Position numbers and translations under genes: made by a program
The notes under the pieces: model-generated
Told to the model about the DNA's origin: nothing
Database searches by the model: none
What the model saw: only the letters and a program-made list of their open reading frames with translations
Part shown: one piece after another, positions 9,313 to 63,788 of the stretch
How positions within the stretch are numbered: the first letter of the stretch is position 1
Layout: the number at the start of each line of letters is the position of its first letter
NCBI GenBank assembly: GCA_020348445.1
Contig: CP070751.1
Coordinates: 2,273,153 to 2,337,152, forward strand
Source of the DNA: Thermoplasmata archaeon
GTDB taxonomy: Archaea > Thermoplasmatota > Thermoplasmata > GCA-020350865
Length of the DNA: 64,000 nt
Direction of reading: 5' to 3'

Positions 9313-9981
9313 TTACTTAATAGCGTAGAAGTTTTCAAAGAAACATTGGGATATATCCGAATCCTCAACCTCTGAGATCGCTTCATCCAATTTCATTTTC
9401 AATTGGGGGAACATCTTCTTGAGATCCATTAAATATTTTTTTCCAGATTCTATATCGATTTCAGGATGGAATTGCACTCCCCATACTGGTGCGTTCTTGA
9501 TTTGAAATGCCTGAACATTGCATTGTTCCGAGGAAGCCAGAATATTAAAATCATCAGAAAGGTTACAAGCTTCATCAAAGTGTGAATTGAAAACAAGAAA
9601 ATCTCCTTCTAATCGTTTAAAAAGGGGATTACCCTTTGTGAGGCACACTAGCTTCCAACCGATCTCGGGAGTTTTTGACTTTCGGACACCTTTGAGCCCC
9701 AGCAATGCCCGTGCAATCAGCTGATGTCCAAAACAGATTCCCAATGTCGGGATATTTTTATCGATAATTTCTCGTACCAATTCCATTTCTTTTTCGATCC
9801 ACTTTCTATCGTTTAAAATGGATTCTTCGGAGCCCGAAAGAATGATATGATCATATTTATCGAGATCTTTAGGGAATTTTCGTTTAGAGGCCTCGAATAT
9901 TTCCAAATCTTCCTGATAATATTTTGAGAAATATTCTGAATATTTTTTATTTATGAAGTTATCTAAAACCAATGTTGTCAT
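9313..9981 (-). CDS. Class I glutamine amidotransferase-like protein
   Basis: A stand-alone 222-residue GATase-1 domain. The nucleophile elbow is LGICFGHQ (C83) and the His-Glu pair is in GVQFHPEID (H172, E174), so the triad is intact. Glutamine would be hydrolysed to supply ammonia, or a gamma-glutamyl bond cleaved. It resembles the GMP-synthase glutaminase subunit but no ATP-pyrophosphatase partner is next to it, and the C-terminal 40 residues are extra. A GMP-synthase-like or gamma-glutamyl hydrolase role is possible. GGGGGC lies just before the ATG. Confidence 0.85.
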   Translation of the reverse strand: MTTLVLDNFINKKYSEYFSKYYQEDLEIFEASKRKFPKDLDKYDHIILSGSEESILNDRKWIEKEMELVREIIDKNIPTLGICFGHQLIARALLGLKGVRKSKTPEIGWKLVCLTKGNPLFKRLEGDFLVFNSHFDEACNLSDDFNILASSEQCNVQAFQIKNAPVWGVQFHPEIDIESGKKYLMDLKKMFPQLKMKLDEAISEVEDSDISQCFFENFYAIK

Positions 9982-10057: not shown

Positions 10058-11821
10058 TCACTTCATCACACCTTGTGTCCCACATTTTGGACATTGTACC
10101 TTTTGTGGGCCAGGTTTCGTTACCATGAAAAATATATTATGGCAACTGGGGCAAGTAACCTGAAGTGTTTGGGTTTGTGGTTGGATCGGCGTTGTTTGAC
10201 CAGGTAAAGAAGAAGAAGTTTGTTGGGGATATTGTTGGATTGGATATGTGGGGGTGGGCCCTTTTGCTGCTTTACTACGCTTATACAGGACCAATGTTGA
10301 TGCTATGGCTAAAGCTACAATTATACCAATGATCCCAGACAATAAAAGTAGCGGCAACCCCTCTTCGTCTGCCCCATCCCCTCCATCCCCTTCATCCGGT
10401 TCTTCCTGTGCACTTATCACGACTGTAAATTCATCGGACCATTCTGATGAATCACCGTGGATATCAATGGCACATACTGTAATGTTGTAAGTACCTTGTG
10501 AAGACCAATTATGAGATAATGAGTCCGTGGTTCCAGAATTGACATAGTCTGTCTCGGAAGTATTACCATCGTCCCAATCAATTCTATACTTGACCTGGTC
10601 ATCATTTGGATCCAATGCAGATACAGAATATGAGTAAGTTTTATCCACATCCCCGCTTTCAGGGCCCTGGGGTTTATCTGGTTTATTTGGCGGCTTTTGT
10701 GGGATTGCACATTTAAGTGTCCTTTCGTTTTCATCGTAATAACTGATATGGAGATAATCCTTGCTGTCCATTGCTATAGACGAGTAGAGGCCAATATTCT
10801 TCGAGGAATCCACAGTTTCTTCGATCCAACGGGATCCATTATATTTCTGATACCTAAGCTCGTTGGTTTCGAAATTATCATTATTTATATCACCCCAGGA
10901 ATAGCATATGGTTGGATTATCATCACTGTCCAGGGCTATTGATCCTGAAAACCCACTAAATTTAGTAGTGGCTATGGTTTCGCTGCTCCATACGCCTGCC
11001 TCCCTTACAGCGTACATTACGTTAAAATAGTAAACTCCATTCATACTATCTACGAAAAAATCGAAGTAACTCATATGTGGATCTCCATTGCTGTCAAGTG
11101 TCAATGATCCGGCATGGCTAACATATTGTGGTGAATGGACGATTTCTGTATCCCAATTACTTTGGGTCCGTTTGGCATATCTCACATCCCAACTCTCATT
11201 CGCAGTGTATCCGATATGCGGATTGTCATTTTCATCCACTGCTATAGAAATATAGAAACCCACATCTCCTTGTGAATCTACTGTTTCGATGTCCCATTTA
11301 CTTCCCGTCCATTCTGTATATTTGAGGTCCAAGGAGGTATTATCATAATAGCTGATATGAGGATGATCGCTGCTATCCAGTGCAAGTGATGAGAATTGGC
11401 CCACATCTTTCTCCGAATCCACAGTTTCGATATTCCATTTGCTCCCACTCCATTTTGCATATTTCAAATCACCGTTGGTTTGGTCATAATAAGAGATATG
11501 CGGAATATCATTACTATCCACAGCCAATGATGAAAAATAGCCTATATCTCCTGCACTTTCGACGGTCTCAACCTTCCAATTGCTTCCAGTCCACTTTACA
11601 TATTTGAGATCTTCACTAGCATTATCAAAATAACTGATGTGCGGAAAACCACTGCTGTCCATTGCTATGGAATTGTACATTCCCACATCATCGGCAGGAT
11701 CTGGAATCTCGATGTTCCACGTCTCGGCCTTCACATTTTCGCTTTTAAGATTCACAAACCCAAAAAATCCCCCGATTATCATGAACCAGATAATGCTAAT
11801 TGAGACAAATCTATAGTTCAT
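10058..11821 (-). CDS. Membrane-anchored seven-repeat propeller with PKD domain and zinc ribbon
   Basis: From ATG 11821 (MNYRFVSIS) the protein has 587 residues; a longer open frame reaches 11962 but would put 47 residues before the signal sequence, and AGAAGG precedes 11821. A signal helix is followed by seven repeats of about 46 residues with the core SSLAVDSNDIPHISYYD...LKYAKW, as expected for one seven-bladed beta-propeller. A PKD-like domain (NKPDKPQGPESGDVDKTYSY...WSSQGTYNITV) follows, then a membrane helix (LPLLLLSGIIGIIVALAIA), a Pro/Gln-rich linker and a terminal zinc ribbon CPSCHN...CPKCG. The topology puts the propeller outside and the zinc ribbon inside. Ligand unknown. Confidence 0.85.
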   Translation of the reverse strand: MNYRFVSISIIWFMIIGGFFGFVNLKSENVKAETWNIEIPDPADDVGMYNSIAMDSSGFPHISYFDNASEDLKYVKWTGSNWKVETVESAGDIGYFSSLAVDSNDIPHISYYDQTNGDLKYAKWSGSKWNIETVDSEKDVGQFSSLALDSSDHPHISYYDNTSLDLKYTEWTGSKWDIETVDSQGDVGFYISIAVDENDNPHIGYTANESWDVRYAKRTQSNWDTEIVHSPQYVSHAGSLTLDSNGDPHMSYFDFFVDSMNGVYYFNVMYAVREAGVWSSETIATTKFSGFSGSIALDSDDNPTICYSWGDINNDNFETNELRYQKYNGSRWIEETVDSSKNIGLYSSIAMDSKDYLHISYYDENERTLKCAIPQKPPNKPDKPQGPESGDVDKTYSYSVSALDPNDDQVKYRIDWDDGNTSETDYVNSGTTDSLSHNWSSQGTYNITVCAIDIHGDSSEWSDEFTVVISAQEEPDEGDGGDGADEEGLPLLLLSGIIGIIVALAIASTLVLYKRSKAAKGPTPTYPIQQYPQQTSSSLPGQTTPIQPQTQTLQVTCPSCHNIFFMVTKPGPQKVQCPKCGTQGVMK

Positions 11822-11968
11822 ACTAACGCCTTCTCTTATATCTGGATACATTTTGCTTTTTATTAACTTTTTGTGCGTTATTTGTTGTTTAAATGCAAAA
11901 AAGGAAGGCAATCCTACATTTCCAGTCAGCGAAGTCGTTAAGAGAGGATCGCAAAAAACCAAAAAAAT

Positions 11969-13576
11969 TCACTTGACCCACTTTTTCGGAACGGATTCAG
12001 GATCGTGGGGATCAGAGCCCCATTCCTTCTCGATTGCATCGCACCATCCATCACCATCTGAGTCCTTTTGGATGTTGCTCAGTATTTCACTTGCCTTCTC
12101 GAAGCAGTTACTATGTGAAGAAATGTGTTTCAGAATCTCTTCAGCGTCCTCCTTTGAGAACTGTCTTAAAAATGCCCTGGCCAACATCAATCGCACTGAA
12201 TCGATGCGATCCCAGGCTTTATTTTGACGGATGAACACCTGAGTCTGAAGGATAAAATCGCTAATTTTTTCGAAATCTTTCCCCATCTTATCAAACAGAT
12301 ACTTGATATCCTCGAAGTATTCCTCGGTTGTGAGCTTCGCTTTTGTGCTTTTCTTAAGGTTTCTTGCCACAATATTGATAGCATCCTTAAAGTTCCTGTT
12401 CACAAAGGGGTCTTCATCCAAGTTGATCACTTGATCTTTTCTTATTCTGAGATATTTTCTTTTACTCTGTTCCCTCCTGAAGGAAACGCCGCTTAAGAAT
12501 GCGGACTCAGTCAAATAATATGGATCGACCTTGTATTTTTTAGCTGAGGTCTTGATGTCTTTATCGTGCCCCAATATATACGATAACTTAACCTGGGACT
12601 CGACTGGAGTGAGATCACCGGAAGGAACTGCACCCAAATCTATGGGTATTAAGCCCGTGTCAAATTCAAAATCTGATACCCCTCCCAGTACCTGCGAGGA
12701 AATCACCACAAAATATTCCTCTTTAAGTGCCTTTTTTATCATAGGCATGATGGAATTCTTCTCCAGCTCCTTTGTATGCACATTTCCAGGTCCATAACCT
12801 GCAATCACAAGGCCCTTTTCGCACCTTTCCAGAAATTTCAAGTAATCCAATTTTGTAAAGAAAGGATTTGTATAAATGAGCTTTACCCCTTCCTCGAACT
12901 TACCATCATAATATGTGTTATATCCGTTTTCCTGGCTTATATCAGCGATTGTCGATGCTATCTTCCTCCAATCTTCAAAGGCCATATCTGAAGAACCTTT
13001 TTCAACAACCGGGTGTGTGTATATCTCATGATAGTATTTTCTCTGATTCTCCTGCTTTAAGAATCCCTCGACAAGGTCCGCCCCTGGCACAAGCCCTCCC
13101 TCTTCGTACCTTATGGATTCGATGGCGCCCCCGCAACGAATCAAATAAAGTTTGTCCAGAGGCCTAACGAACCTCTTGTATTTCAAGTCCTTCCCATATG
13201 TTTTTAATTCATCCCAACTTATCTTTGCGATTTCCTCCCCCGCAAATGCATCTGGTTCCCAATTATGTTTCTTCTGTAATCTCGAACTGTAAACCGTCCT
13301 ACCGAAATTAAAAATAACGGCAACACAGGGTGGATCAACCCTGGTAAGAAAGATCAAGGAATTCCTTATGTTCTCCCCTGCATCAGTGGAGGAGAAACCG
13401 GTTTTGAGGGGTCGTTGAGATCCGGTTATGGCTATGTTGCATTTCATATTCTTCATCATATATCTCAAAGCAGAAAATGCCCATGCCATTGTATCTGTCC
13501 CGTGTGTAACCAGTATCCCAAAATCAGCCATACTTTTATAATCCGATTCCTTTGATCGTTTTTTTGTTCTGGTCAA
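11969..13576 (-). CDS. Asparaginase/GatD-like protein lacking the nucleophile segment
   Basis: A 535-residue member of the asparaginase fold. It starts just before the second active-site motif (GILVTHGTDTMAW, T27-D28) and continues through ITGSQRPL, FGRTVYSSR, LYLIRCGG and the C-terminal domain (GLVIAGYGPGNVHTKEL...VVISSQVLGG...DLTPVESQVKLSYILG). The normal first segment with the TGGTI nucleophile is absent. The start is a TTG with GGAGG 8 nt upstream, and the upstream spacer holds no missing exon-like frame. After the asparaginase core come about 160 helical residues and a thrombospondin-type-3-like calcium motif (DSDGDGWCDAIEKEWGSDP, about 505-523). Closest in kind to GatD of archaeal tRNA-Gln amidation or to type I asparaginase, but probably not catalytic in the usual way. 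Confidence 0.8.
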   Translation of the reverse strand: MTRTKKRSKESDYKSMADFGILVTHGTDTMAWAFSALRYMMKNMKCNIAITGSQRPLKTGFSSTDAGENIRNSLIFLTRVDPPCVAVIFNFGRTVYSSRLQKKHNWEPDAFAGEEIAKISWDELKTYGKDLKYKRFVRPLDKLYLIRCGGAIESIRYEEGGLVPGADLVEGFLKQENQRKYYHEIYTHPVVEKGSSDMAFEDWRKIASTIADISQENGYNTYYDGKFEEGVKLIYTNPFFTKLDYLKFLERCEKGLVIAGYGPGNVHTKELEKNSIMPMIKKALKEEYFVVISSQVLGGVSDFEFDTGLIPIDLGAVPSGDLTPVESQVKLSYILGHDKDIKTSAKKYKVDPYYLTESAFLSGVSFRREQSKRKYLRIRKDQVINLDEDPFVNRNFKDAINIVARNLKKSTKAKLTTEEYFEDIKYLFDKMGKDFEKISDFILQTQVFIRQNKAWDRIDSVRLMLARAFLRQFSKEDAEEILKHISSHSNCFEKASEILSNIQKDSDGDGWCDAIEKEWGSDPHDPESVPKKWVK

Positions 13577-13693
13577 AGTATTCCCTCCAGCTAAACCAAA
13601 TCACCGAAAGAGTTGTTTGAATTAAAAGTTTATGCCTAAAAGGGCGAGAAACATTCAAAAATTTAAATAACCCAAATTCATTCTCTCTAAGCC

Positions 13694-14275
13694 ATGTTCC
13701 CCTTAGGTCATATAGGTATAACCATTGGCATTGTATATCTGATGCTATCGTTATTATCCTCTAGAAATAAACTCAGCGACCCTCGTAAATCGCCATTCGA
13801 AGAACTGGATTTCCGGTTCGTTATATTTGCAGCACTTTTACCTGATATCGTTGACAAGATCGTGGGGATGCTGATATTTAAAGATGAATTCTCAAATGGC
13901 AGGATATTTATGCATTCTGCCGTCGTAATCGGCATATTGTCCATATGTTACTTCATTGCAGCCAGAATTAAATTAAAAAGTGCTCTTATTACCATATGCT
14001 ATATCTTTTCCGTATGGATGCATCTATTATTGGATATGATGTGGGTGGAACCAAAGACTCTGTTTTGGCCACTTATGGGTTTAGATTTTCCAAGATCTGA
14101 TGTTGAATTTTCTGATTACTTTGGGATGCTAATAACGAATTCCTTCACATATTTTACGGAGATTTTGGGTGGTTTGATAATAATCATATTAATTATTAGG
14201 CACAGGTTGTTTATAAAAATGCATCTTATTGAATTTATTAAGGATGGAAAACTTAAAATATTGTCTGAATCCTAG
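13694..14275 (+). CDS. DUF457-like membrane-bound metal-dependent hydrolase
   Basis: A 193-residue, mostly hydrophobic protein. It keeps the histidine pattern of the YdjM/DUF457 group: FPLGHIGI at the N-terminus, FMHSAVVIGI near residue 76 and HLLLDMMWVEPKTLFWPL near 114-131. These residues are thought to bind metal within the membrane-embedded active site; physiological substrates are unknown. A TATA-like ATTTAAATAA about 28 nt before the ATG suggests a leaderless transcript. It is convergent with the DUF998-like gene, with which it shares its last four bases. Confidence 0.8.
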   Translation: MFPLGHIGITIGIVYLMLSLLSSRNKLSDPRKSPFEELDFRFVIFAALLPDIVDKIVGMLIFKDEFSNGRIFMHSAVVIGILSICYFIAARIKLKSALITICYIFSVWMHLLLDMMWVEPKTLFWPLMGLDFPRSDVEFSDYFGMLITNSFTYFTEILGGLIIIILIIRHRLFIKMHLIEFIKDGKLKILSES

Positions 14276-22253: not shown

Positions 22254-25200
22254 TCATTTTTCTTCCTCGTCGACCTTTATCTCCACCACATCATTGAGAT
22301 CGTCCTCAATAGATGATGCTTTTCCATCCCTCTCCAAGGCTTTCAGTTCGAATAAATAATCGTCAATCTTCTTATCCAAAATTAGAAAGTGATTTTCCTC
22401 AAGTTTACCATCCTTGACATGACCTTTGATCTCTTCCCTGAGGGAGATCAGTTCTTTCTCGCAGGTCATGTAATCGTCCTTATATTCTTTGAATATCTCA
22501 TCTATCTTTTCCAAATATCCGCGAAGCTTGCCACGCTTCTTTCTTAGTGATAAAAATCCAAACATGAATAAAAGGATCGATGCAATAATTGTCAATCCAG
22601 TGACTATCGGTTCCATGGTCTCCCAGGTAATTCCCTCCGCTTTTACTTTTGTTTCACCAGTTATGAATGACCAATTATAATTGTCATCCAAGCTGATACT
22701 ATTTAAATTCTTTGCATTTGTGGAAATGCTCACATTGTATTGGGTCTTGGCGGTTAAAGGAGCATTAGGCGTAAATATAAGGGTGGTTCCCTCCCACGTG
22801 AAAACACCGCTTACAGCCGGAGTTATGGAAAATGCATCTTCAGTATCATCTTTATTCATTGGCTCACTAAACGAAATCGAGATGGTGGTATCCATGGGTA
22901 CATTTGTTCCTGTAGGTTTCCAGGAATTATCCAAGGCATATGGATGGATCACACCAGCAGCTGATTCCGTGGTAAATTTCCAGCTGTACTCTGAGATTAA
23001 GCCATTTCCTGTTAGATCACTGGCATTTGTGCTTATATTAATTATGTATTGAGTGTCATATTGCAGATTATTGCTTAGGGTAAATATCATGGTATTTCCA
23101 CTCCAGGAAAAAGTACCTGGGATTTCCGGAGAAATCGAAAATGCACCCTGAGAGTTTGTGTGATTCATTTCCTCACTGAAAACAATTGTTATGGTTGTGA
23201 CTATGGGGATATTGTCACCAGTGGGGGATTTATCAATTATCGTTGGTGGAATATCTGTTGTTGACCTAAATACGATGCTTTTTTCCTCGGATAACACCCC
23301 CTCCCCTTCTAAGTTTTTTGCAGAGACTTTATAGTAATATGTGATGCCGTTGGTTACATCTATGTCATTATAAAACAATACATTAGATATCTCCTCCAAA
23401 AATGTCTCTGTACCGGGATTATATCCCCTATATATTCTGTAATTTGTAATGGGAGATTTACCGCTTGAAGTGGGAGCATTCCAGGTCAATCGTATGTAAG
23501 AATCCGTGGACTCTGCCTGGATATTCTGGGGGACCGAGGGTGTGGCCACCAAGGTGGTCTCGTTGGGGCTGTTGGATGTTGAGCCTAAGTTATCCAGTTC
23601 ATCATAAGATTTAATTGCAAACCAGAACCTGGTGCCATGGCTGAAACCCGAGACAATATGGTACTCTGTGCTACCTGCACTTTGGGGAGTCCAACTCTGC
23701 ACATATGTTGCTGAAACATCCCAATTTGCATCGGTGATTGATCCTGTTGTCGAATATTTTACAATATATCCAGAAGCAGAACCTATACTACCGTTATCAC
23801 TTGGCGCGGTCCATGTCAGGTTGATGGAATCGAATGAGGGATTTAGTGCAGTCAAATCATTTATGGGAGTAGGGGGGCTGCTGTCAACAGTAAATTGCCA
23901 GGATATCATAATGAGGTTATCGAAAATATCCATAACCCAAAGGGATACTGTGTGCAATCCATCATCGAGTTCGATTGCGGGTGTATATGATACACCACTT
24001 TGTGTAACTGTTGTAGAGGATGTTACATTTATTCCATCAATTTCAAGCAATACACTATTTTCGTTTATCCCAGCAGGATCGCTATAACTGCAATTGATTG
24101 TTATTAAATTGTTATTAGTTACATAGTCTTGGGAAGGCTGGAAATCCGAGATGGTTGGTGGATCCGACTCGACATGGGAGACGAGGGGGAAATTATCCTG
24201 CCCGCCACCGTTTAAGATATAAGGATTGTCTACTATGCCAAAAGGTGCAATAGAATCAGGTACTGTCCAGTCCATCCACCAGTTGCCCTGCGAGTTGAAA
24301 TCCCAGAGGTTACTGCCGTCATCGTAGCCCTGTATATTGACTGGATCATGGACGCTAGTGCTGCCATTGTTGTTGGCAATGTTGTTGTGATGAATGAGGT
24401 TGCTGGAAGAAGAATTGATGTAAACCGCGTAATATGAGTTATTGTTGATGTCGTTATAGGAAATGATATTCTCATTGGATGATGATGAGATATTGATTCC
24501 GAATTCGCTGTTGTTTACTATGGTATTTTGACTTATAGTGTTGCTGCTTGAGGATTTGATCATAATACCGTCGATTGTGTTTGATAGGATATCGTTGTTT
24601 GTGATCTCATTGTAATTGCTCATGGAATAAAGGAAGATTCCTGACCTGTTATTTGATGTGATCTCATTTCCAGATATGATGTTGTCGTTCGAGGAACTAA
24701 GACAGATACCGCTTTTTTTGTTTGATGTGATAGTGTTTGCCGAAATCGTGTTGTCATTGCTGAAAAGCATGAGATTGACACCATGATCTCTATTCATGGT
24801 GATGTTGTTGCCTGAGATCGTGTTATTGTTGCAACCATTAGTAAAATAGATGCCTTCATATATATTCCATGATATATTATTGCCTGAGATAATGTTGTTG
24901 CTGGATTTATGGAAGTAAATGCCACGATAATTTGAGAACACATTGTTGTTTGAGATAATATTATCATTTGAATCATGCAATTCGATGGCATTCCACGATT
25001 GATTGGTGATATTATTGCCTGAGATTGTATTGTTTGTGCTTGAAAGCCAAAAAGCAATGCCATAACCATTATATGAAATAGAGTTGCGAAAGATCGTGCT
25101 GCCGTTGGAGGACGAGAGATATATTCCATATAAAGTATCTGAAATGTGGTTGTAAGAGATCGTGTCGTTGTTGGAACTTTCGAGATGTATACCTCGGCTG

Positions 25201-28200
25201 TTTGATTTGATAATGTTTTGATATATTGCGCAATTATTTGCATGGTCTAGATATATGCCGGCATCCGATCCCCCGCTGTTTGTAATATTGAACTCTGTGA
25301 TGGTCGTTAAGTTTGCCTCGATTATAACCACATGTCCATTCCCACCCCCATCTATTACTGTTAGATTTCTATACTCACCCACGAGGTTCAGCGTCTTGTT
25401 CACTATAACATTCTCATAGTACCTTCCAATTGCTACCCATATCGTATGACCGTCCAGGGTATCAGGGTCGTCTATGGCTTCTTGTATCGAAAGGAATACC
25501 TCCAGTGTATCCAGATTGGTCACCGGATAGGCTGAAGGTAGTGTCCATCCACTGGAATTTGCCCATGGATAATGGTCTAAGTTAATTCCACCAGTTATGG
25601 GCCTGGGAATGTCCACGAACCTGTCGCCGTCGTCATTTGGTGTCGTCCAGTCGTCCCAGTGATTGCCACCTTGTGGATAGGGGAGGTTCCAGGAGTTGGT
25701 GCCATCATCATATCCATGTTGGGTGTTGGATATGAAATTGTTGTGATATATCAGGTTGCTGTTTGATCCTTCAAGGGAAATCCCTTCGTTGTTTGAAAAA
25801 ACGTTATTATTCAAAATCGTAATGCCATCTGAAGATTCGAGGCGGATTCCATATTGGGTGCTTAAACTGACATTGTTGCTAGAAATCGTGCCCCCGGTAC
25901 AACTGTTAAAGTTGATGCCGATCCTGTGATCCGATATGTTATTTTCCGTGATATTGTTGTTATTGGAATTACCGATGTAGACTGCAATATCGTTATTTTT
26001 GATTTTGTTATTCGAGATAGTGTTGTCATTGCCTTTATTTATAATATGGATTGCGCTCTGTATATTCCAGGTGATGTTGTTGCCGGAAATAGTGTTATTA
26101 TTACACCAGAGAATAAGAAAGATACCCCAATCGTTGTCCGATACATTGTTATCCAAAATATCGTTGCCTGCTGAATTACTGAGGTAGATGCCTTCATCGG
26201 TGTTGGAAACCACATCATTTCCCGAAACAGTATTATTATTGCTTGAAAGAGAGAGTAGAATTCCATTATCATTGTGCGAGATGTTGTTGTCCAGAATCTT
26301 ATTGTCGGTACTGGATGTAAATAGCACTATACCATAAATTAGGTTCCAGCTGATATTGTTTGATAGGATCGTGTTGTTGCCGGAGGAGTTGAGGTATATG
26401 CCATTATAATTATTCAAGGCTGTGTTGTTAACGATTGTGTTGCCCTTGCTGGAGTGATCCAGGCAGATGCCATCGAGATTATTCCTGATGAAGTTGTTGC
26501 CAGAAATTACGTTGTTGCTGGAAGCATCGAGGTAGATGCCATAACGATCATTCATGGTGATATCGCTGGAAGAGATCGTATTTCCATTGGAAGAATCCAG
26601 GTAAATGCCCTCCCGATTGTTCGAAGTTATATTGTTGCCAGAAATGATGTTATTACCGGAAGCATCAAGGCGGATACCAATCCCACTGTTTTCAGAGATG
26701 TTGTTGCTCGTAATAGAGCTTTCGTGGGAAGAAGAAAGGCGGATTGCGGTATTCTCGTTAAAGATCACGGTATTGTTAATAACGGTGCTGTTTATGGAAT
26801 CGTGTATTCTTATTCCGTAATCAGAAGTAAGATACCTCTGGGCGATCTCGATTTCTGAAAGCGAGCGGTTGTATATGGAGACCTCGTCTATGAGGCTGTC
26901 GATATACCTTCCACCGTAATCAGGGTTGTAACTGAAATTTACAGGATTTTCATTTAAGGCGATAAGGCTGGGATATGGATTGTCCTGATTGCCTCCGTTC
27001 TCCTCGACTCCGTTTACGAATATTCTCACAAGCCCGGTAATACAGTTGAAGGTTCCAACAATATGGGTCCATTGATTCAAGGGGATGACCGTAGAAGACC
27101 ATCTTGCTCTCCAGTCTCCATTTACATAAACATCCATTTGCGCGTAATTGCCGCTGTTAATCATCAGGTTGTATGCATAACCCTTGTAAACTATGGTCTG
27201 ATGTGTTCCGGTATAGGATTCAAGTTTGACCCACGCCTCGATGGTGATGTTCTTCGTTATATTCAGGCTGTCAGATGTGGGGATGGTGACATAATTGTTA
27301 CTTGACGCTTCGAAATCACCTGCTCTTTGGAATTTCCCAGATGCTGTGCTAACACCGTTTTCTGCTCTCCCGTCATTTCCCATTCCCGAGTAGTCAATCA
27401 CTTCGCCTGCTGCCCCGCTCCAGGATGCCTCGTCCATCTTCCAGTATCCCACGAGGCCATTTTTATCGATATATGCCCTGCCAGAGATATTGTTTCCCTG
27501 GATTGTATTATCGTGGGAGTTTTCCAGATGAATATTATCGATTTTGTTCCCGTTCAGGATATTTTGGGTAACATTGTTTTCACTGGAACTCATTAAATAT
27601 ATTCCACTTTGCCTGTTGGAACACACTGTATTGTTCGAAACAGTATTGTTTTTAGAAGAATCGAGGAGGATGCCCACATTGTTGAATCTCACATCATTGT
27701 GGATAATTTCGTTGTTTTCGGAATCAATAATTCTTATTCCGCTTGTGGGGAATTGATAAAGTCTGGCAACCTCGCTTTCTAAAAGCATGTAATTATAGAT
27801 TCTGACCTCATCGATTTTACCGTGGAAAAACCAACCTTGAAAGTACATACCAATCTGCATTGGACCTGTGCCAATATAAGCTCCAGTTGATGTATCACTT
27901 ACTTCTAATATTCCGTCTCTGTACAATCTTCTTTCTCTGGTAACACCGTCATAGGTTCCAACCCAATGATGCCATTCATTGACATCGGGATATGGAATTG
28001 CAGTAACGAGGTCATCACCCCAGAACGCAAACGTGAATGTATCTTCCACTCGATATCCAAAATGCAATCCCTCATTTTGTGCTTCTACTCCATGTGAAAT
28101 AATAATATCCCCGGTACCTTTGCTTTCTCTATACGTCCAAGCCTCCAATGTAAAGGACTTCCCGACTCCCCCTATCTGCAAACTGGAACCGGCACCGACA

Positions 28201-30773
28201 TCAACGTAATCCTCATTATCGTCGAATGTTCCCGCTCTTCCGAAATTAACTGCGGTGGTGTTTGCATTCCCATAAGCGGTCCCATGATTTGCCTTACCCG
28301 AGTGGTCCTCTACCTCACCTGGAATCCCACTCCATCTTCCTTCATCCATTTTCCAGTACGCGACAAGCCCGGAATCAATGATATCTTCCGGACCCACAAC
28401 CACGTTCTCCTCAATCACATTGTCATTGGAATTTTCAAGAAGGATACCCTCCAGTTCATTATCAAGAAGGGAGTTGGAAATCATCGTGTTATTGTTAGAA
28501 TTCACAAGGTGGATGCCGTTATCGTTGCTAAAGGCCAGGGTATTGTTGACAAGATTGTTTCCATCTGAATGGGAAAGACATATACCGTACACGGAAATTG
28601 TAGCATGATACAAAGCATCAATCTCCCCTTGTGAAAGCGACCGGTTGTAAATCGCAAGCTCGTCCAATGCACCTTTCCAACCGCTAACCCATGACCACCC
28701 GATCCGCAATGGGTCATTCCCTGCATGAATTCCTCCAATATGCGGTTGTGTTCCTCTCAGGATGCCGTTTACGTAGATGCAAATATCCGAGCCGTCGTAC
28801 GTGGCTACAATATGATACCAATTGTATGGTTCCACTGCCTCCGAGCTTACAACTTCCGTATAACCGCTGGCAAATCCATTTGAGCTGACCCAGAAGCGGG
28901 GATATATCCCACTGGGATATAGCAAATCCAGCGCGTAGGCCATCTCACCAAGGTCCCAATTCTGATGTTTGTAAACGATTCCTCGATTCACAGTCACATC
29001 TTCAGGGTAAACCCATGCACTGATGGTAATCTCATCTGTAATATCCAGACTTGCAGAATCGCTCGCTTCGATATACTCGCCATTATCTGTAAAATAACCT
29101 GCCCTTCCGAATCTACCGAATCGGGTCTTTGGTTCGTTTACTGCAGTTCCGTGATTCCCCTGACCCGAATCATCTGTAACCTCATTCTGGGTTGTGTCCC
29201 AGAACCTCTCATCCATCCTCCAGTATCCAACAAGATTGGTTTTATCAATATCCACCAAGCTGTAAACGTTGTTATCCAGGATATCATTGTCATGGGAGTT
29301 TTCCAGATGCACATTATCGTCACCATTTCCCTTTAACGTATTTTGGCTGACATTATTTTCACTGGAATTCACAAGATATATTCCGTTAAGTCTATTGGAA
29401 CCAATTGTATTGTTAATGATATCATTGTATTCGGAGGAATGGAGAATGCAACCCCATTTGTTCAGGCTCACCTCATTTTTGGTAAGGCTGTTGTATGTGG
29501 AATCTTCAATTCTAATACCGCAGCCGGAAAAACGATAAAGACCTGCAATCTCACTTTCGGTTAATGCGGAATCGTAGATTGCAACCTCGTCGATTACACC
29601 CTTGAAATATTGAGTATTGTAATCACTGAATCCTATGAAAAGATCGATTGGAGTTCCCGCTATACTGGCTGACCCGGTGGCCGAATTAACCAAGACACCG
29701 TTCACATACATCCTCAGGGTGGTGCCCTCTTTTTGTGCAACAATATGGTACCATTGATCAGGAGATAATATCGGTCCATAAATATTCGAAATAACAGGGG
29801 TACCATCACCATACTCAAATTGAGGTTGGAAACCAGGTTGCGTCCTGATTCTATAGCCCATGTAGTTACCTGCAAATCCACTGAATTTATGGACTATAGC
29901 GTCATGGTTGTCCTGTGCACCTTCAGGTTTGACCCAAACCGAGATTGTAATATCCGATGTTATATTCAAACTGCTGGATTCGGGAACGCCTACAAAATCG
30001 TTTACTCCGTCGAAGTACCCTGCCCTGCCCATCTTTGCATCGTTTGTGGTATCTGCACTGCCATTTGTAAAGCCATGATTCTCGAAAATTCCAGAATCCC
30101 TCACATCGGAGTTTATTCCTTCCCACCTGCCCTCGTCCATCCTCCAGTTCCCCACAAGTCCTGTTCTGTTAATTCCATCAATTCCCTCAACGATGTTCTC
30201 ATCAATCACATTGCCGTGGGAGTTATCCAGATAGATATTGTCTCCTTTATTTCCCGCAAGGATATTGGAGGCTACCGTGTTATCGCTTGAGTTTACCAGG
30301 CGGATGCCGTATCGACCATTTGAGCGGATGATGTTGTTGGTGATGTTACAATTCTGGACATTATCCAGTTCTATCCCGGAATCAAAGGTGCCGTTTCCGC
30401 CGTTTGTGATGGTAAACCCGGTGATATTCACCCAGTGGGAGATGATATTCACAACATCGCCAGTACCCTGGCCGTTTATGGTGGTATTTGAGGTTCCGTT
30501 TCCGATTATGGTGAGAGTCTTGTTCACTGTAATGCTCTCATTGTACGTACCTGCCCAGACATATATGGTGCCACCCTCAATGGAGTTGTTGATGGCGTCC
30601 TGAATGGTAGGGTAATCACCAGGCACGGTAATGGCTTCTGCATCCTCAACAAAATTATTTATAACAATTAATCCCGTGAACATGGTCCCCAAAAGAAAAA
30701 TAATAAGGATTGTAGACCTGATCTTTTTACTCGTTATGATAGAAAATTCAACTTTCTTATGATTCCCACTCAT
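22254..30773 (-). CDS. Giant cell-surface protein: NosD beta-helices with four nested LamG domains, FN3, Ig-like, membrane anchor and cytoplasmic tail
   Basis: 2839 residues. After a signal helix (about 14-40) comes a NosD-type opening (PGDYPTIQDAINNSIEGGTIYVWAGTYNES) and a long right-handed parallel beta-helix of roughly 22-residue rungs (NISGNNITSNN..GIYL). Four concanavalin-like LamG domains, each opening LVxYWxMDE, interrupt it at about 208-410, 518-720, 809-1001 and 1111-1314. A second NosD helix starts near 1758; both helices end in a GYDDG..W...G..W.DWT cap. Then follow an Ig-like domain (about 2200), two FN3 domains (about 2300 and 2415), two Big_5-like domains (about 2510 and 2610; FSEEMN, FSEPMN), a membrane helix (about 2722-2745) and a 90-residue charged helical tail. 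Likely binds or processes surface polysaccharide; the function is not established. Confidence 0.9.
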   Translation of the reverse strand: MSGNHKKVEFSIITSKKIRSTILIIFLLGTMFTGLIVINNFVEDAEAITVPGDYPTIQDAINNSIEGGTIYVWAGTYNESITVNKTLTIIGNGTSNTTINGQGTGDVVNIISHWVNITGFTITNGGNGTFDSGIELDNVQNCNITNNIIRSNGRYGIRLVNSSDNTVASNILAGNKGDNIYLDNSHGNVIDENIVEGIDGINRTGLVGNWRMDEGRWEGINSDVRDSGIFENHGFTNGSADTTNDAKMGRAGYFDGVNDFVGVPESSSLNITSDITISVWVKPEGAQDNHDAIVHKFSGFAGNYMGYRIRTQPGFQPQFEYGDGTPVISNIYGPILSPDQWYHIVAQKEGTTLRMYVNGVLVNSATGSASIAGTPIDLFIGFSDYNTQYFKGVIDEVAIYDSALTESEIAGLYRFSGCGIRIEDSTYNSLTKNEVSLNKWGCILHSSEYNDIINNTIGSNRLNGIYLVNSSENNVSQNTLKGNGDDNVHLENSHDNDILDNNVYSLVDIDKTNLVGYWRMDERFWDTTQNEVTDDSGQGNHGTAVNEPKTRFGRFGRAGYFTDNGEYIEASDSASLDITDEITISAWVYPEDVTVNRGIVYKHQNWDLGEMAYALDLLYPSGIYPRFWVSSNGFASGYTEVVSSEAVEPYNWYHIVATYDGSDICIYVNGILRGTQPHIGGIHAGNDPLRIGWSWVSGWKGALDELAIYNRSLSQGEIDALYHATISVYGICLSHSDGNNLVNNTLAFSNDNGIHLVNSNNNTMISNSLLDNELEGILLENSNDNVIEENVVVGPEDIIDSGLVAYWKMDEGRWSGIPGEVEDHSGKANHGTAYGNANTTAVNFGRAGTFDDNEDYVDVGAGSSLQIGGVGKSFTLEAWTYRESKGTGDIIISHGVEAQNEGLHFGYRVEDTFTFAFWGDDLVTAIPYPDVNEWHHWVGTYDGVTRERRLYRDGILEVSDTSTGAYIGTGPMQIGMYFQGWFFHGKIDEVRIYNYMLLESEVARLYQFPTSGIRIIDSENNEIIHNDVRFNNVGILLDSSKNNTVSNNTVCSNRQSGIYLMSSSENNVTQNILNGNKIDNIHLENSHDNTIQGNNISGRAYIDKNGLVGYWKMDEASWSGAAGEVIDYSGMGNDGRAENGVSTASGKFQRAGDFEASSNNYVTIPTSDSLNITKNITIEAWVKLESYTGTHQTIVYKGYAYNLMINSGNYAQMDVYVNGDWRARWSSTVIPLNQWTHIVGTFNCITGLVRIFVNGVEENGGNQDNPYPSLIALNENPVNFSYNPDYGGRYIDSLIDEVSIYNRSLSEIEIAQRYLTSDYGIRIHDSINSTVINNTVIFNENTAIRLSSSHESSITSNNISENSGIGIRLDASGNNIISGNNITSNNREGIYLDSSNGNTISSSDITMNDRYGIYLDASSNNVISGNNFIRNNLDGICLDHSSKGNTIVNNTALNNYNGIYLNSSGNNTILSNNISWNLIYGIVLFTSSTDNKILDNNISHNDNGILLSLSSNNNTVSGNDVVSNTDEGIYLSNSAGNDILDNNVSDNDWGIFLILWCNNNTISGNNITWNIQSAIHIINKGNDNTISNNKIKNNDIAVYIGNSNNNNITENNISDHRIGINFNSCTGGTISSNNVSLSTQYGIRLESSDGITILNNNVFSNNEGISLEGSNSNLIYHNNFISNTQHGYDDGTNSWNLPYPQGGNHWDDWTTPNDDGDRFVDIPRPITGGINLDHYPWANSSGWTLPSAYPVTNLDTLEVFLSIQEAIDDPDTLDGHTIWVAIGRYYENVIVNKTLNLVGEYRNLTVIDGGGNGHVVIIEANLTTITEFNITNSGGSDAGIYLDHANNCAIYQNIIKSNSRGIHLESSNNDTISYNHISDTLYGIYLSSSNGSTIFRNSISYNGYGIAFWLSSTNNTISGNNITNQSWNAIELHDSNDNIISNNNVFSNYRGIYFHKSSNNIISGNNISWNIYEGIYFTNGCNNNTISGNNITMNRDHGVNLMLFSNDNTISANTITSNKKSGICLSSSNDNIISGNEITSNNRSGIFLYSMSNYNEITNNDILSNTIDGIMIKSSSSNTISQNTIVNNSEFGINISSSSNENIISYNDINNNSYYAVYINSSSSNLIHHNNIANNNGSTSVHDPVNIQGYDDGSNLWDFNSQGNWWMDWTVPDSIAPFGIVDNPYILNGGGQDNFPLVSHVESDPPTISDFQPSQDYVTNNNLITINCSYSDPAGINENSVLLEIDGINVTSSTTVTQSGVSYTPAIELDDGLHTVSLWVMDIFDNLIMISWQFTVDSSPPTPINDLTALNPSFDSINLTWTAPSDNGSIGSASGYIVKYSTTGSITDANWDVSATYVQSWTPQSAGSTEYHIVSGFSHGTRFWFAIKSYDELDNLGSTSNSPNETTLVATPSVPQNIQAESTDSYIRLTWNAPTSSGKSPITNYRIYRGYNPGTETFLEEISNVLFYNDIDVTNGITYYYKVSAKNLEGEGVLSEEKSIVFRSTTDIPPTIIDKSPTGDNIPIVTTITIVFSEEMNHTNSQGAFSISPEIPGTFSWSGNTMIFTLSNNLQYDTQYIINISTNASDLTGNGLISEYSWKFTTESAAGVIHPYALDNSWKPTGTNVPMDTTISISFSEPMNKDDTEDAFSITPAVSGVFTWEGTTLIFTPNAPLTAKTQYNVSISTNAKNLNSISLDDNYNWSFITGETKVKAEGITWETMEPIVTGLTIIASILLFMFGFLSLRKKRGKLRGYLEKIDEIFKEYKDDYMTCEKELISLREEIKGHVKDGKLEENHFLILDKKIDDYLFELKALERDGKASSIEDDLNDVVEIKVDEEEK

Positions 30774-31110
30774 ATTTCATTCCTCCGGCGTTACTGTTTT
30801 ATATCTTTCAATGTTGTAATAGGTTCATTCGCTGTAGGGCCATTCTTTGGACCAGATTCCACCTATACCAGACTTAGATATTAATGCTTTGGTAGTATAT
30901 GATGTTATGCTGAATTCGAAGTCTTCGTTCAAATTCTATTGCAGGTTCACGGCTTGTTAAGGGGTGCTAATCAACGAATAACTGGATTATTTATGAATTA
31001 TTTAATATTTTAGATATTGTAAAATAAATGTCTAAAAAGTGTTCCATAAATCATTAATATGCAGGATTTAATATATTTATAGTCAATAATTTGACTCTCG
31101 GGGGTATTTT
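30774..31110. other. Divergent promoter region (about 335 bp)
   Basis: AT-rich spacer between the giant leftward gene and the first SBBP gene. It holds the duplicated upstream motif at 31031-31049, a TATA box and a dyad at the right end, described separately. No ORF or RNA gene is seen. Confidence 0.55.
31031..31110 (+). promoter_or_regulatory. Promoter of SBBP protein 1 with dyad after the TATA box
   Basis: The sequence TCTAAAAAGTGTTCCATAA (31031-31049) recurs upstream of the second SBBP gene. A TATA box AATATATTTATAG spans 31070-31082. Directly after it is a perfect dyad, AGTCAA-TAAT-TTGACT (31081-31096), then a G-run and the ATG at 31111. Transcription should start near 31101, giving a leader of about 10 nt. 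Confidence 0.6.
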
Positions 31111-60433: not shown

Positions 60434-63400
60434 CTATATTGTCTTCAGTTCCCTAAGTCTATCCTTATACTTTTCTTCGAGAAGTGTTAATTGAATGTAG
60501 GTCAATCGTTCCTTTTCAGTATCAACTTTAATTTCGGTATCTATATCGATTAATTCCGAAACAGATGTACTTTCATCAAGGCGGCGTTTGTACTTGCGGT
60601 ACAGCCGCTTTTTTCGAGTAATGACCATGGAACCCAAGATCACTGCACCGATACCCATTAATATACCCATGACCAGTTCACCTATCTCGAATTCCACACC
60701 CCAGAACCTTATCAGGTTCGGGTCTTTTTGAACTTTCGGATCCAATGGTGCGTAGTCATCGTAATCGGGCACACCGTCGTTATCATCATCAAAATCCGCA
60801 TTATTGGCTATCCCATCCATATCTGTATCCAAGGGCACACTAGTGTTATCCTTGGGATCGGATCCCGCAGCCTCTTCGATATAATTTGACCAGCCGTCAT
60901 TATCGTCATCATCGTCCATGTCATCAGGGATATTATCTCCATCAAAATCGGGAGGGTGGTCATTGGCATCGTGGATGTCTGTTCCGTAACTGCGCTCCAG
61001 ATCATCGGAAAAACCGTCATTATCATCATCATCATCGGCATTGTCCCCGATGCTATCGTTATCAGAATCCTGCCATTCGGTCCTGTCTTTAGGGAATTGG
61101 TCACTGTTATCTCCCCAGCCGTCATTATCGAGGTCCCTCCATTCTGTTGGATCATCTGGGAAAGCATCATCGAACTGATCCCCGTGTCTGTCGCCATCTG
61201 AGTCAACGTATTCGAAGGGATCCCAAGGTAAGTCCTCACTATTATCTCCCCACCCATCACCGTCGCTATCGACCCATTCAAATCCATTATCTGGAAAAGC
61301 ATCTATAAAGTCTGGGTATCCATCGTTGTCATTGTCCGGTTTAAAATCTATACAGTTTCTATTCAATCTTATAGTAAAGGAATTACTATCTTCATTTACA
61401 AAGGCAAGATCAAGATCAATATCATTATCCACATCACCCAGGATAGTGGATCTGACACGGGATATAGTTGGATAATCCTCCCTAAAGTAAAAACCGCCCT
61501 TTCCGTTATTTTTATAGACCGTAATTGAGTGGCCATAATAGTTACCAATGATTAAGTCTTGATCACTATCTGAATCTATATCTCCCAAACACATAGATCG
61601 CGGGTATTCTCCCACAGGATAGTCCGTCTTCGTACCAAAATTACCTAAACCATCGTTTTTTAGGATCGAGACACTTTCACTCCAAGCATTTCCTACAATA
61701 ATATCTAAATCTCCATCACTCTCCACATCACCGAATATAACTGCTTGTGGATTATCACCTACTGGATAATCGCGACTCCACGAGAATTCACCAGCACCAT
61801 TATTTCTAAATACTACTACCTCATCATCTTCGGTATCTGCCACTACAATATCCATATCATTATCTTCATTGATATCTCCCATATAGATTGCGCTTGGATT
61901 ATCGAGTCCATCGAGACCACCATAATTTTTTTCATTCCCGAAACCCCCTATTCCATTGTTAATACGAACAGAAAGATCATTGTCATTTTTGTTCAAAGTA
62001 ACCATATCTATAAAATTATCCCCATTGACCTCTGCTAGATATAATATTGGGCCCGAACCCATTAAATATTTATATTGAGATCCAAAGATCCCAGTCCCAT
62101 CATTTTTTCTAAGCGAAACATATCCAGAGGAGGCAGTCCCTCCACCTGAGTAGAATAGATCTAGATCTCCATCATTATTTATATCGCCCAATGCAACTGT
62201 ATTTGGACGGTTCCAGTCATCTACTGTATAATCGGTTCTTTCACCGAAATTTCCATGGCCATCATTAAAATATACTGATATTGTACTGCTTCCATAATTA
62301 GCGATGACAATATCAGATATATCATCTCCATCGATATCGCCCATAAATAAAGAACGTGGTCCAGATTCCATAGGATAATGTGTTTCTATATTGAACCAAC
62401 CATGACCTTCATTTATCAGTATTGAGATTCTATCCGGTTTTGGCCTACCATTAGGAACTGCAATATCCAGATCACCATCCTTATCAATATCACCTAAGTC
62501 AAATAACCTAGGATATCCGCGCCCCACTTTAAACTCTAACTTGGCCTTGAACGAACCGTCTCCAGAGTTAATAAATATTCCGACAATATTCTCTAGATTT
62601 AATTTTTTTGTTATTAATACATCCAAGTCACTATCACCATCTATATCATCTAAATGTATGAAAGATGGATAATCGCCAGCAGGATAATCAGTTCTATCTG
62701 GGAATTTTCCGGTGCCATCGTTCTTTAAAACAGATATTGAATCCTCACCTGGGTCCAATATAGGTCCCTTGTTCGTCACCACTATATCCTGATCAGAATC
62801 TCCATCTATATCACCTAAAGAAATCGAGTATGGGTTATTAAAGTCCGTGTAATTGGTTAAATCTACAAATGCCCCCGCTTTATCATTAAATAAAACAACA
62901 ATTGTATCATTATAGGGTAGTGTGGCCACAATATCAAGATAATTATCTCCATTTATATCGCCCATGTGAATATCCTCGGGGTGATATCCTACCCAATAAT
63001 CTTTTAAATTACCATATTGTCCACTTCCATCATTTTTCAAAACCGAGACATTATAGTTCCTACTATTAGCGGTTACAATATCTAGATCGGAATCTCCATC
63101 CACATCGCCGACATAGAGATGAAATGGCCACTTACCCACCACATAATCTTGTTCTGATCCGAAATTACCAAAGCCATTGGTGTTGAATCTCACAGTGACA
63201 CGGTCATCGTAGGGAATGGCGTGAACAATGTCCGGATCGCCATCACCATCGATATCACCCATCATTAATGAGGACTGCCCCGCTACATCTGAATAGGTTG
63301 TTTTGTTTTCAAAGTTACCTTTTCCATCATTTGTCATCGTATAGAAATTGTCATCATCCATACTCGCAGTCACAACATCAAGATATCCATCGCGATTGAT

Positions 63401-63574
63401 ATCTACTAATGCGACATCCATGCAACATATTCCCATTTTATACCATTGTACACTTGTTTCTATTTCTACAGCATCCGCAGGTTCTGATATGAAAGCCAGA
63501 CCAGAAAAAAGGCTCAAAAACATTCCTATTACTAGCGCACAAACTATACTCCTATCCGATTTGATTTTCCACAT
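60434..63574 (-). CDS. Surface VCBS/FG-GAP propeller protein with thrombospondin-type-3 stalk, membrane anchor and cytoplasmic tail
   Basis: 1046 residues behind a GGGGGGTAAT ribosome-binding site. A signal peptide (1-36) is followed by many VCBS/FG-GAP repeats up to about 740, each with a calcium-binding DIDGDGDLDIV-type loop and a VLKNDGxGxF strand; the number suggests about two seven-bladed propellers. A stalk of aspartate-rich thrombospondin-type-3-like repeats (about 745-938; DSDGDGWGDNSEDLP, DDDDDNDGFSDDLE) leads to a membrane helix (about 960-984) and a charged 60-residue helical tail (KYKRRLDESTSVSELIDIDTEI...LEEKYKDRLRELKTI). The tail resembles that of the giant LamG/NosD protein. 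Likely a calcium-stabilised adhesin or receptor. Confidence 0.9.
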   Translation of the reverse strand: MWKIKSDRSIVCALVIGMFLSLFSGLAFISEPADAVEIETSVQWYKMGICCMDVALVDINRDGYLDVVTASMDDDNFYTMTNDGKGNFENKTTYSDVAGQSSLMMGDIDGDGDPDIVHAIPYDDRVTVRFNTNGFGNFGSEQDYVVGKWPFHLYVGDVDGDSDLDIVTANSRNYNVSVLKNDGSGQYGNLKDYWVGYHPEDIHMGDINGDNYLDIVATLPYNDTIVVLFNDKAGAFVDLTNYTDFNNPYSISLGDIDGDSDQDIVVTNKGPILDPGEDSISVLKNDGTGKFPDRTDYPAGDYPSFIHLDDIDGDSDLDVLITKKLNLENIVGIFINSGDGSFKAKLEFKVGRGYPRLFDLGDIDKDGDLDIAVPNGRPKPDRISILINEGHGWFNIETHYPMESGPRSLFMGDIDGDDISDIVIANYGSSTISVYFNDGHGNFGERTDYTVDDWNRPNTVALGDINNDGDLDLFYSGGGTASSGYVSLRKNDGTGIFGSQYKYLMGSGPILYLAEVNGDNFIDMVTLNKNDNDLSVRINNGIGGFGNEKNYGGLDGLDNPSAIYMGDINEDNDMDIVVADTEDDEVVVFRNNGAGEFSWSRDYPVGDNPQAVIFGDVESDGDLDIIVGNAWSESVSILKNDGLGNFGTKTDYPVGEYPRSMCLGDIDSDSDQDLIIGNYYGHSITVYKNNGKGGFYFREDYPTISRVRSTILGDVDNDIDLDLAFVNEDSNSFTIRLNRNCIDFKPDNDNDGYPDFIDAFPDNGFEWVDSDGDGWGDNSEDLPWDPFEYVDSDGDRHGDQFDDAFPDDPTEWRDLDNDGWGDNSDQFPKDRTEWQDSDNDSIGDNADDDDDNDGFSDDLERSYGTDIHDANDHPPDFDGDNIPDDMDDDDDNDGWSNYIEEAAGSDPKDNTSVPLDTDMDGIANNADFDDDNDGVPDYDDYAPLDPKVQKDPNLIRFWGVEFEIGELVMGILMGIGAVILGSMVITRKKRLYRKYKRRLDESTSVSELIDIDTEIKVDTEKERLTYIQLTLLEEKYKDRLRELKTI

Positions 63575-63788
63575 GTATTACCCCCCCTAAGGGTTTCAAT
63601 TGTACAATCAGGAAGTTTTTACAAATATAAATATTTTGACATACCTTATTGAATCATAGAATTATATTAATAAAACCCAGTGCTAAAACGCTATGCAAAT
63701 ACAATGGAACGTATATGTGTGGTGGCATCAAAGGAGGGAGGCACAGACTGCGGGAGGTGAAGCGGGTGATGACAATCCGATAAACTCG

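Follow-up and report, generated by a model that had tools for sequence, protein, structure and literature searches.

The 64,000-nucleotide stretch of Thermoplasmata archaeon DNA analysed here (the window) contains a gene for an asparaginase-like protein whose segments stand in the order B-A-C and whose nucleophilic Thr is replaced by Ala. The frame (11969..13576, minus strand) is open with continuous coding bias, and two normal GatDs are encoded elsewhere in the genome. Judged from the sequence, the N-terminal asparaginase domain is very probably circularly permuted. The explanation that we favour, with moderate confidence, is that the product is a pseudo-asparaginase, in which ligand binding (Asn, Asp, or something similar) would occur without turnover and be relayed to a partner by the C-terminal tail.

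Reading frame and segment order

The coding sequence comprises 535 codons. The TTG start with a good GGAGG site, given in an initial annotation of this DNA, was recovered exactly: the ribosome-binding site read from the sequence lies at 13584..13588 (minus strand), 7 bases before the TTG. Codon bias was scored with 21 further long ORFs from the window as reference (training genes: 0.15-0.36 bits per codon). The whole ORF scored 0.20 bits per codon and the two other frames about -0.7. By parts, the values were 0.18 for segment B, 0.12 for the linker that follows it, 0.20 for segment A, 0.27 for segment C, 0.16 for the helical tail, and 0.41 for the TSP3 tail, with a slightly negative bias at residues 1-17. 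The coding bias is unbroken across both segment junctions, and the linker shows no dip. The window contains no N characters, and no Rfam families were found at 11700-13900.

The asparaginase homology claimed initially holds for both domains, which exceed their curated Pfam cut-offs in the whole protein (PF00710: 89.4 bits, cut-off 22.5; PF17763: 55.6 bits, cut-off 34.6). Their order is another matter. PF00710 positions 79-177 match residues 20-118, while positions 1-77 match residues 142-219, ahead of the C-terminal asparaginase domain. A search of the genome with PF00710 likewise returned two pieces in the same frame and in reversed order, 79-177 first (63.4 bits) and then 1-77 (28.1 bits, E 3.4e-6). 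An isolated 88-residue piece (residues 136-223) also matched PF00710 positions 1-77 above the cut-off of 22.5 (31.6 bits, E 1.4e-7). In a profile built from 40 ordinary relatives, positions 179-247 correspond to residues 20-90, positions 97-172 to residues 138-213, and positions 304-420 to residues 220-342. A profile of segment A from the same 40 relatives scored the real segment at 29.1 bits, whereas 5000 shuffles reached 7.9 bits at most. With Pfam and our own profiles alike, the order is B-A-C instead of the A-B-C of relatives and class 1 asparaginases, so the N-terminal domain appears to be circularly permuted.

All segments are encoded on the minus strand. Segment B (residues 18-118; 13223..13525), equivalent to PF00710 79-177, starts directly at the strand before HGTDT. 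It is followed by the linker (residues 119-141; 13154..13222), in which coding bias persists. Segment A (residues 142-219; 12920..13153) corresponds to PF00710 1-77, which is N-terminal in ordinary enzymes, and segment C (residues 223-343; 12548..12910) is the Asparaginase_C domain; both match the profiles. Segment A, composed of strand 1, the SSDM segment and its helix, thus now sits between B, the HGTDT half, and C. In place of the usual TGGTI-bearing first strand the protein has DKLYLIRCGGAIES, followed by the SSDMAFEDW segment, which is identical in an ordinary asparaginase from a Clostridia MAG (L039).

The TGGTI segment that the initial annotation took to be missing is therefore present downstream as RCGGAIES (residues 147-154, within 142-219). 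Its companion statement, that the remainder of the fold is preserved, holds for segments B and C, but the segment order has changed. A local truncation does not fit either, as the roughly 118 bases between the ORF start and the divergent gene at 13694 leave too little room. Loss of the segment by truncation or frameshift was ruled out: TGGTI was not found in the three frames upstream of the ORF, and the segment was located downstream.

An assembly artefact that fused pieces of two asparaginase genes is very unlikely. The gene is known from one assembly only, but identity to relatives is about 20-35% for each of segments A, B, and C, none of which is a copy of either genomic GatD. The segments also share one frame and strand with no Ns, and the change falls exactly at the catalytic position.

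Natural permutants are known from other folds. The cpRAS GTPases likewise have a conserved fold with motifs in rotated order, according to the excerpted text of PMC2430557; their fold is unrelated, and they form families, whereas the permuted asparaginase is a singleton so far. For asparaginases, permutation is not mentioned in two reviews (PMC8256714 and PMC8948990). Titles and abstracts shown by literature searches described no circularly permuted asparaginase, and those on asparaginase pseudoenzymes and on permutation in general likewise had no such member of the family.

Active site

The position of the primary nucleophile, the second Thr of TGGTI in all 40 relatives, is occupied by Ala151 (GCC; 13124..13126, minus strand). 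Four other conserved residues (coordinates on the minus strand) are retained. Thr27-Asp28 of HGTDT (13493..13498) are kept, with T and D in 40/40 relatives. Lys102 (13271..13273) aligns with the active-site Lys in a column that is invariant in 41 rows (Lys in 40/40 relatives), and Ser195 of SSDM (12992..12994) aligns with the segment-A Ser present in each of the 40. The residue before GG is Cys148, where every one of the 40 relatives has Thr. Thr27, Asp28, and Lys102 correspond to Thr89, Asp90, and Lys162 of E. coli asparaginase II. In that enzyme Thr12, Tyr25, Thr89, Asp90, and Lys162 are crucial, according to the consulted part of a review (PMC8256714). The equivalent of the catalytic Tyr is uncertain, as the candidate Tyr157 lines up with the one in the GatD-type DYRTG and not with that of the archaeal type I enzyme.

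Compared with the class 1 L-asparaginases of T. kodakarensis (5ot0) and Pyrococcus (1wls, 4q0m), the protein shares both Pfam domains, the Thr-Asp of HGTDT, the active-site Lys, the segment-A Ser, and the fold of B and C. It differs in the order B-A-C instead of A-B-C, in the replacement of the nucleophile Thr by Ala151, and in an extra tail of 190 residues.

The same replacement has been made in the laboratory. PDB titles include nucleophile-mutant entries with bound Asn, namely 5dnc (T19A) and 7c8x (T13A, with L-Asn), in which we take T19 and T13 to be the TGGTI Thr. In these two entries and in the engineered E. coli asparaginase II T12V, the same position carries a side chain without a hydroxyl; those proteins are laboratory-made with normal segment order, whereas the present one is natural and permuted. 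T12V bound L-Asn as the wild type did and gave no product in the assay, according to the portion of PMC7567106 consulted. For human ASPG T19A a loss of activity is reported in the consulted part of PMC5443537, where the printed primers seem to alter a neighbouring codon, so we do not count it as evidence.

With Ala151 in place of the nucleophile an acyl-enzyme presumably could not form, and Asn would hence not be hydrolysed. The binding pocket, for Asn, Asp, or some related ligand, would be retained. The change from Thr to Ala with Thr27, Asp28, and Lys102 kept, taken together with T12V and the Asn-bound mutants, most simply suggests binding in the pocket without hydrolysis. The initial annotation had suggested a pseudoenzyme as well, and the idea is supported for another reason than the one given: the nucleophile segment is present but moved, with Ala151 for Thr.

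Alternatively, the protein could still be an active amidohydrolase with a relocated nucleophile (e.g. Cys148 before GGA, or Thr27), with Asn, Gln, or some other amide as substrate. Retention of Thr27, Asp28, Lys102, and Ser195 and the Cys148 peculiar to this protein would agree with such activity. Class 1 enzymes, however, need their primary nucleophile, as the lack of product with T12V in the excerpts of PMC7567106 illustrates, and no precedent was found in the consulted portions of the asparaginase literature. We consider a relocated nucleophile quite unlikely.

Predicted structure and C-terminal tail

Structure prediction with AlphaFold2 was sensitive to the alignment used. With rows of B and C only, most B and C blocks reached pLDDT 60-94 and residues 114-200 stayed below 50. 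Adding fragments with MAFFT mostly put segment A, or else a portion of B or C, in the wrong place, hence subsets of rows were tried (120 + 48 + 420 + 630 + 576). The best-anchored full-length alignment that placed A correctly, A8, was chosen from these trials; it contains 25 A fragments and 18 B-C fragments (44 rows including the query). The A8 model had a mean pLDDT of 67.2 and a pTM of 0.59. Its pLDDT is about 80-90 for the greater part of residues 163-216 and below 50 in linker 108-135 and loop 150-162; two strands (140-148, 182-191) and one helix (200-216) are formed. Segment A is thus predicted to fold as in asparaginases. Since A8 was selected for correct anchoring of A, its model shows compatibility, conditional on the homology of A, and is no independent proof.

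With Foldseek alone, superposition in sequential order was poor (TMq 0.36 and rmsd 10.6 in the top row), which is expected for a permutant and equally for a poor model. A second structural aligner matched 5ot0 with Z 17.4 and rmsd 3.7 over 235 residues, pairing model residues 15-363 with chain residues 73-328. This in-order alignment covers B and C only and leaves out the first 72 residues of the chain, as permutation predicts. Among the 50 matches listed by this aligner, 42 are asparaginases aligned from chain residue 72-107. Of the other eight, six have their first aligned residue at 49 or lower, and the two GatD matches begin at residues 77 and 86, which in the GatD chains lie in or before segment A. 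When segment A alone was compared with PDB sequences, there were just 2 matches, neither of them meaningful (E 0.61 and 0.96).

Both the helical region and the calcium-type tail of the initial annotation were found. AlphaFold2 predicts, at moderate pLDDT, a long helical stretch of six successive helices at residues 392-502 (12071..12403, minus strand), in which no Pfam family scored above its cut-off. It is followed by a TSP3-like calcium-type motif with DSDGDG at residues 505-526, DSDGDGWCDAIE (11999..12064, minus strand). The motif is a single repeat that stays under the Pfam cut-off of 25 for PF18884 (19.1 bits in the whole protein, 21.8 bits in the tail alone). When residues 346-535 were compared with the host genome, none of 18 non-self matches was significant (best E 0.0275), and 16 of the 18 fell on the TSP3-like motif. 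At two of the loci found in this way (L050, and L053/L055, which are one ORF) the ORF starts with a hydrophobic stretch, as in exported proteins. The permuted asparaginase gene has no such hydrophobic start when inspected by eye, and no signal peptide is obvious, in line with the absence claimed initially. An ORF of 1047 codons in the window (60437-63577, minus strand) weakly matches the TSP3-like tail end at two places.

The protein is probably a ligand-responsive regulatory or scaffold protein, a role proposed from its features, in which the helical tail and the TSP3-like, possibly calcium-binding, motif may serve as an output or interaction module. A fuller version of this proposal is that the class 1 asparaginase fold has here its first natural circular permutant, in which permutation and a single Thr-to-Ala change gave a cytoplasmic non-hydrolytic Asn/Asp receptor, with the tail and TSP3-like motif coupling binding (possibly together with calcium) to a partner. 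This version is tentative, and we see it as possible rather than probable. L-asparaginases are leukaemia drugs and hence among the most studied enzymes. If the permutation is real, such a natural permutant would indicate that new chain ends can be accommodated in the N-terminal domain, a point of interest for folding and for engineering. The natural exchange of Thr for Ala, if confirmed, would likewise provide a ready-made Asn/Asp binder or sensor.

Distribution and genomic context

A second permuted gene was not found in 60 relatives, 389 genomes of the phylum, 400 of the class, and 5 of one other class (the sets of relatives, phylum, and class overlap, and each includes the host genome). The initial annotation had proposed searching related genomes for the architecture that it saw as truncated; among the matches listed for the phylum and class sets, the window gene alone has permuted spacing. 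With a permuted-order profile, for which scoring in the 389 phylum genomes covered the top 3 candidates of each genome, it spans 1026 bases, and the other B-to-C matches among those listed span at most 828 (most 729-771). Viral contigs yielded no match, and no permuted gene was found in phages, where 3 records covered 17-24% of the query, or in plasmids, where 4 records covered 19%. Scanning of genome contigs for exact 8-residue patterns, which finds close relatives only, returned one locus, the Clostridia asparaginase L039 with the ordinary order A-B-C.

PF00710 had no match in a same-genus genome (G001) or a same-order genome (G002), which is not evidence of absence, as G001 probably has assembly gaps. 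G001 contains two GatE-family genes, one of them 88% identical to that of the window genome, and no GatD (loci L064, L066, L069, L070). Two stretches of it that were read contain runs of 100 Ns. Because of these N runs, and because it has GatE-family genes without GatD, G001 is probably incomplete. The permuted asparaginase is so far a lineage-specific singleton. As no second permuted copy was found, selection and independent assembly cannot be shown.

A DNA rearrangement in a now-decaying gene, with a pseudogene that is open by chance, has to be weighed. The catalytic Thr is lost, and neither an orthologue nor a same-genus copy was found in the searched genomes. Against decay stand 535 open codons with gene-like codon bias in every segment, the good ribosome-binding site, retention of other active-site residues, and a long, new tail that itself shows coding bias. 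From one sequence a pseudoenzyme cannot be told apart from a decaying gene, though 535 codons are open; on balance we regard decay as unlikely and retain the non-hydrolytic binding protein as the preferred reading.

The host genome is 5.16 Mb in one contig and is listed as 81.66% complete. It encodes two complete GatDs with TGGTIAS and GatD_N, which score 518-556 against the GatD NCBIfam models. Their genes (G000:C1 3724420-3725406, L002, and 4116470-4117420, L003) encode proteins 44% identical to each other. Two GatE-family genes (G000:C1 2877674-2878102, L062, and 3729075-3729497, L063; 35% identical to each other) are present too, one of them about 3.7 kb from a GatD. The genome perhaps has two parallel tRNA amidotransferases. 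The initial annotation had proposed looking for gatE, and GatE-family genes do exist, but they belong with the canonical GatDs, and the nearer one is about 0.59 Mb from the permuted gene. With two complete GatDs and two GatE-family genes in the genome, the permuted gene is not the GatD of the cell. In a PF00710 search of the genome with E up to 10, the only hits were both GatDs, the permuted gene (as two pieces), and one match of 11.9 bits, below the cut-off. A separate N-terminal half that complements the protein, as once suggested, is not among them: the other PF00710 genes are the two complete GatDs, and the next match is the one of 11.9 bits.

The protein could still be a GatD-related subunit that alters tRNA amidation, a GatD that produces no ammonia and pairs with GatE-family proteins. 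It shares the asparaginase domains with archaeal GatD, a subunit of the Glu-tRNA(Gln) amidotransferase GatDE, and the GatD models give its best NCBIfam scores (110 and 105 bits); two GatE-family proteins would be available. These scores are, however, far below the respective cut-offs of 310 and 324. The order is rearranged, the nucleophile is absent, and GatD_N (PF18195), matched by both genomic GatDs, had no match in the permuted protein at E up to 1. Considering also the two complete GatDs and the lack of a gatE nearby, we regard a GatD-related role as very unlikely.

The neighbouring genes show no clear functional link to the permuted asparaginase. A divergent gene for a YdjM-like membrane protein lies at 13694-14275. 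On the other side, on the minus strand, are a gene for a DUF7253 protein with a weak PKD-like match below the cut-off (10058-11962, TTG start as listed) and a class I glutamine amidotransferase gene (9313-9981). The product of 10058-11962 is a predicted repeat protein that, by eye, possibly begins at an ATG inside the frame, ahead of a hydrophobic stretch, and has at its end a transmembrane-like stretch and a zinc-ribbon-like tail with CxxC...CPKCG. The longest open frame of the window, 2840 codons, is found at 22257-30776 (minus strand).
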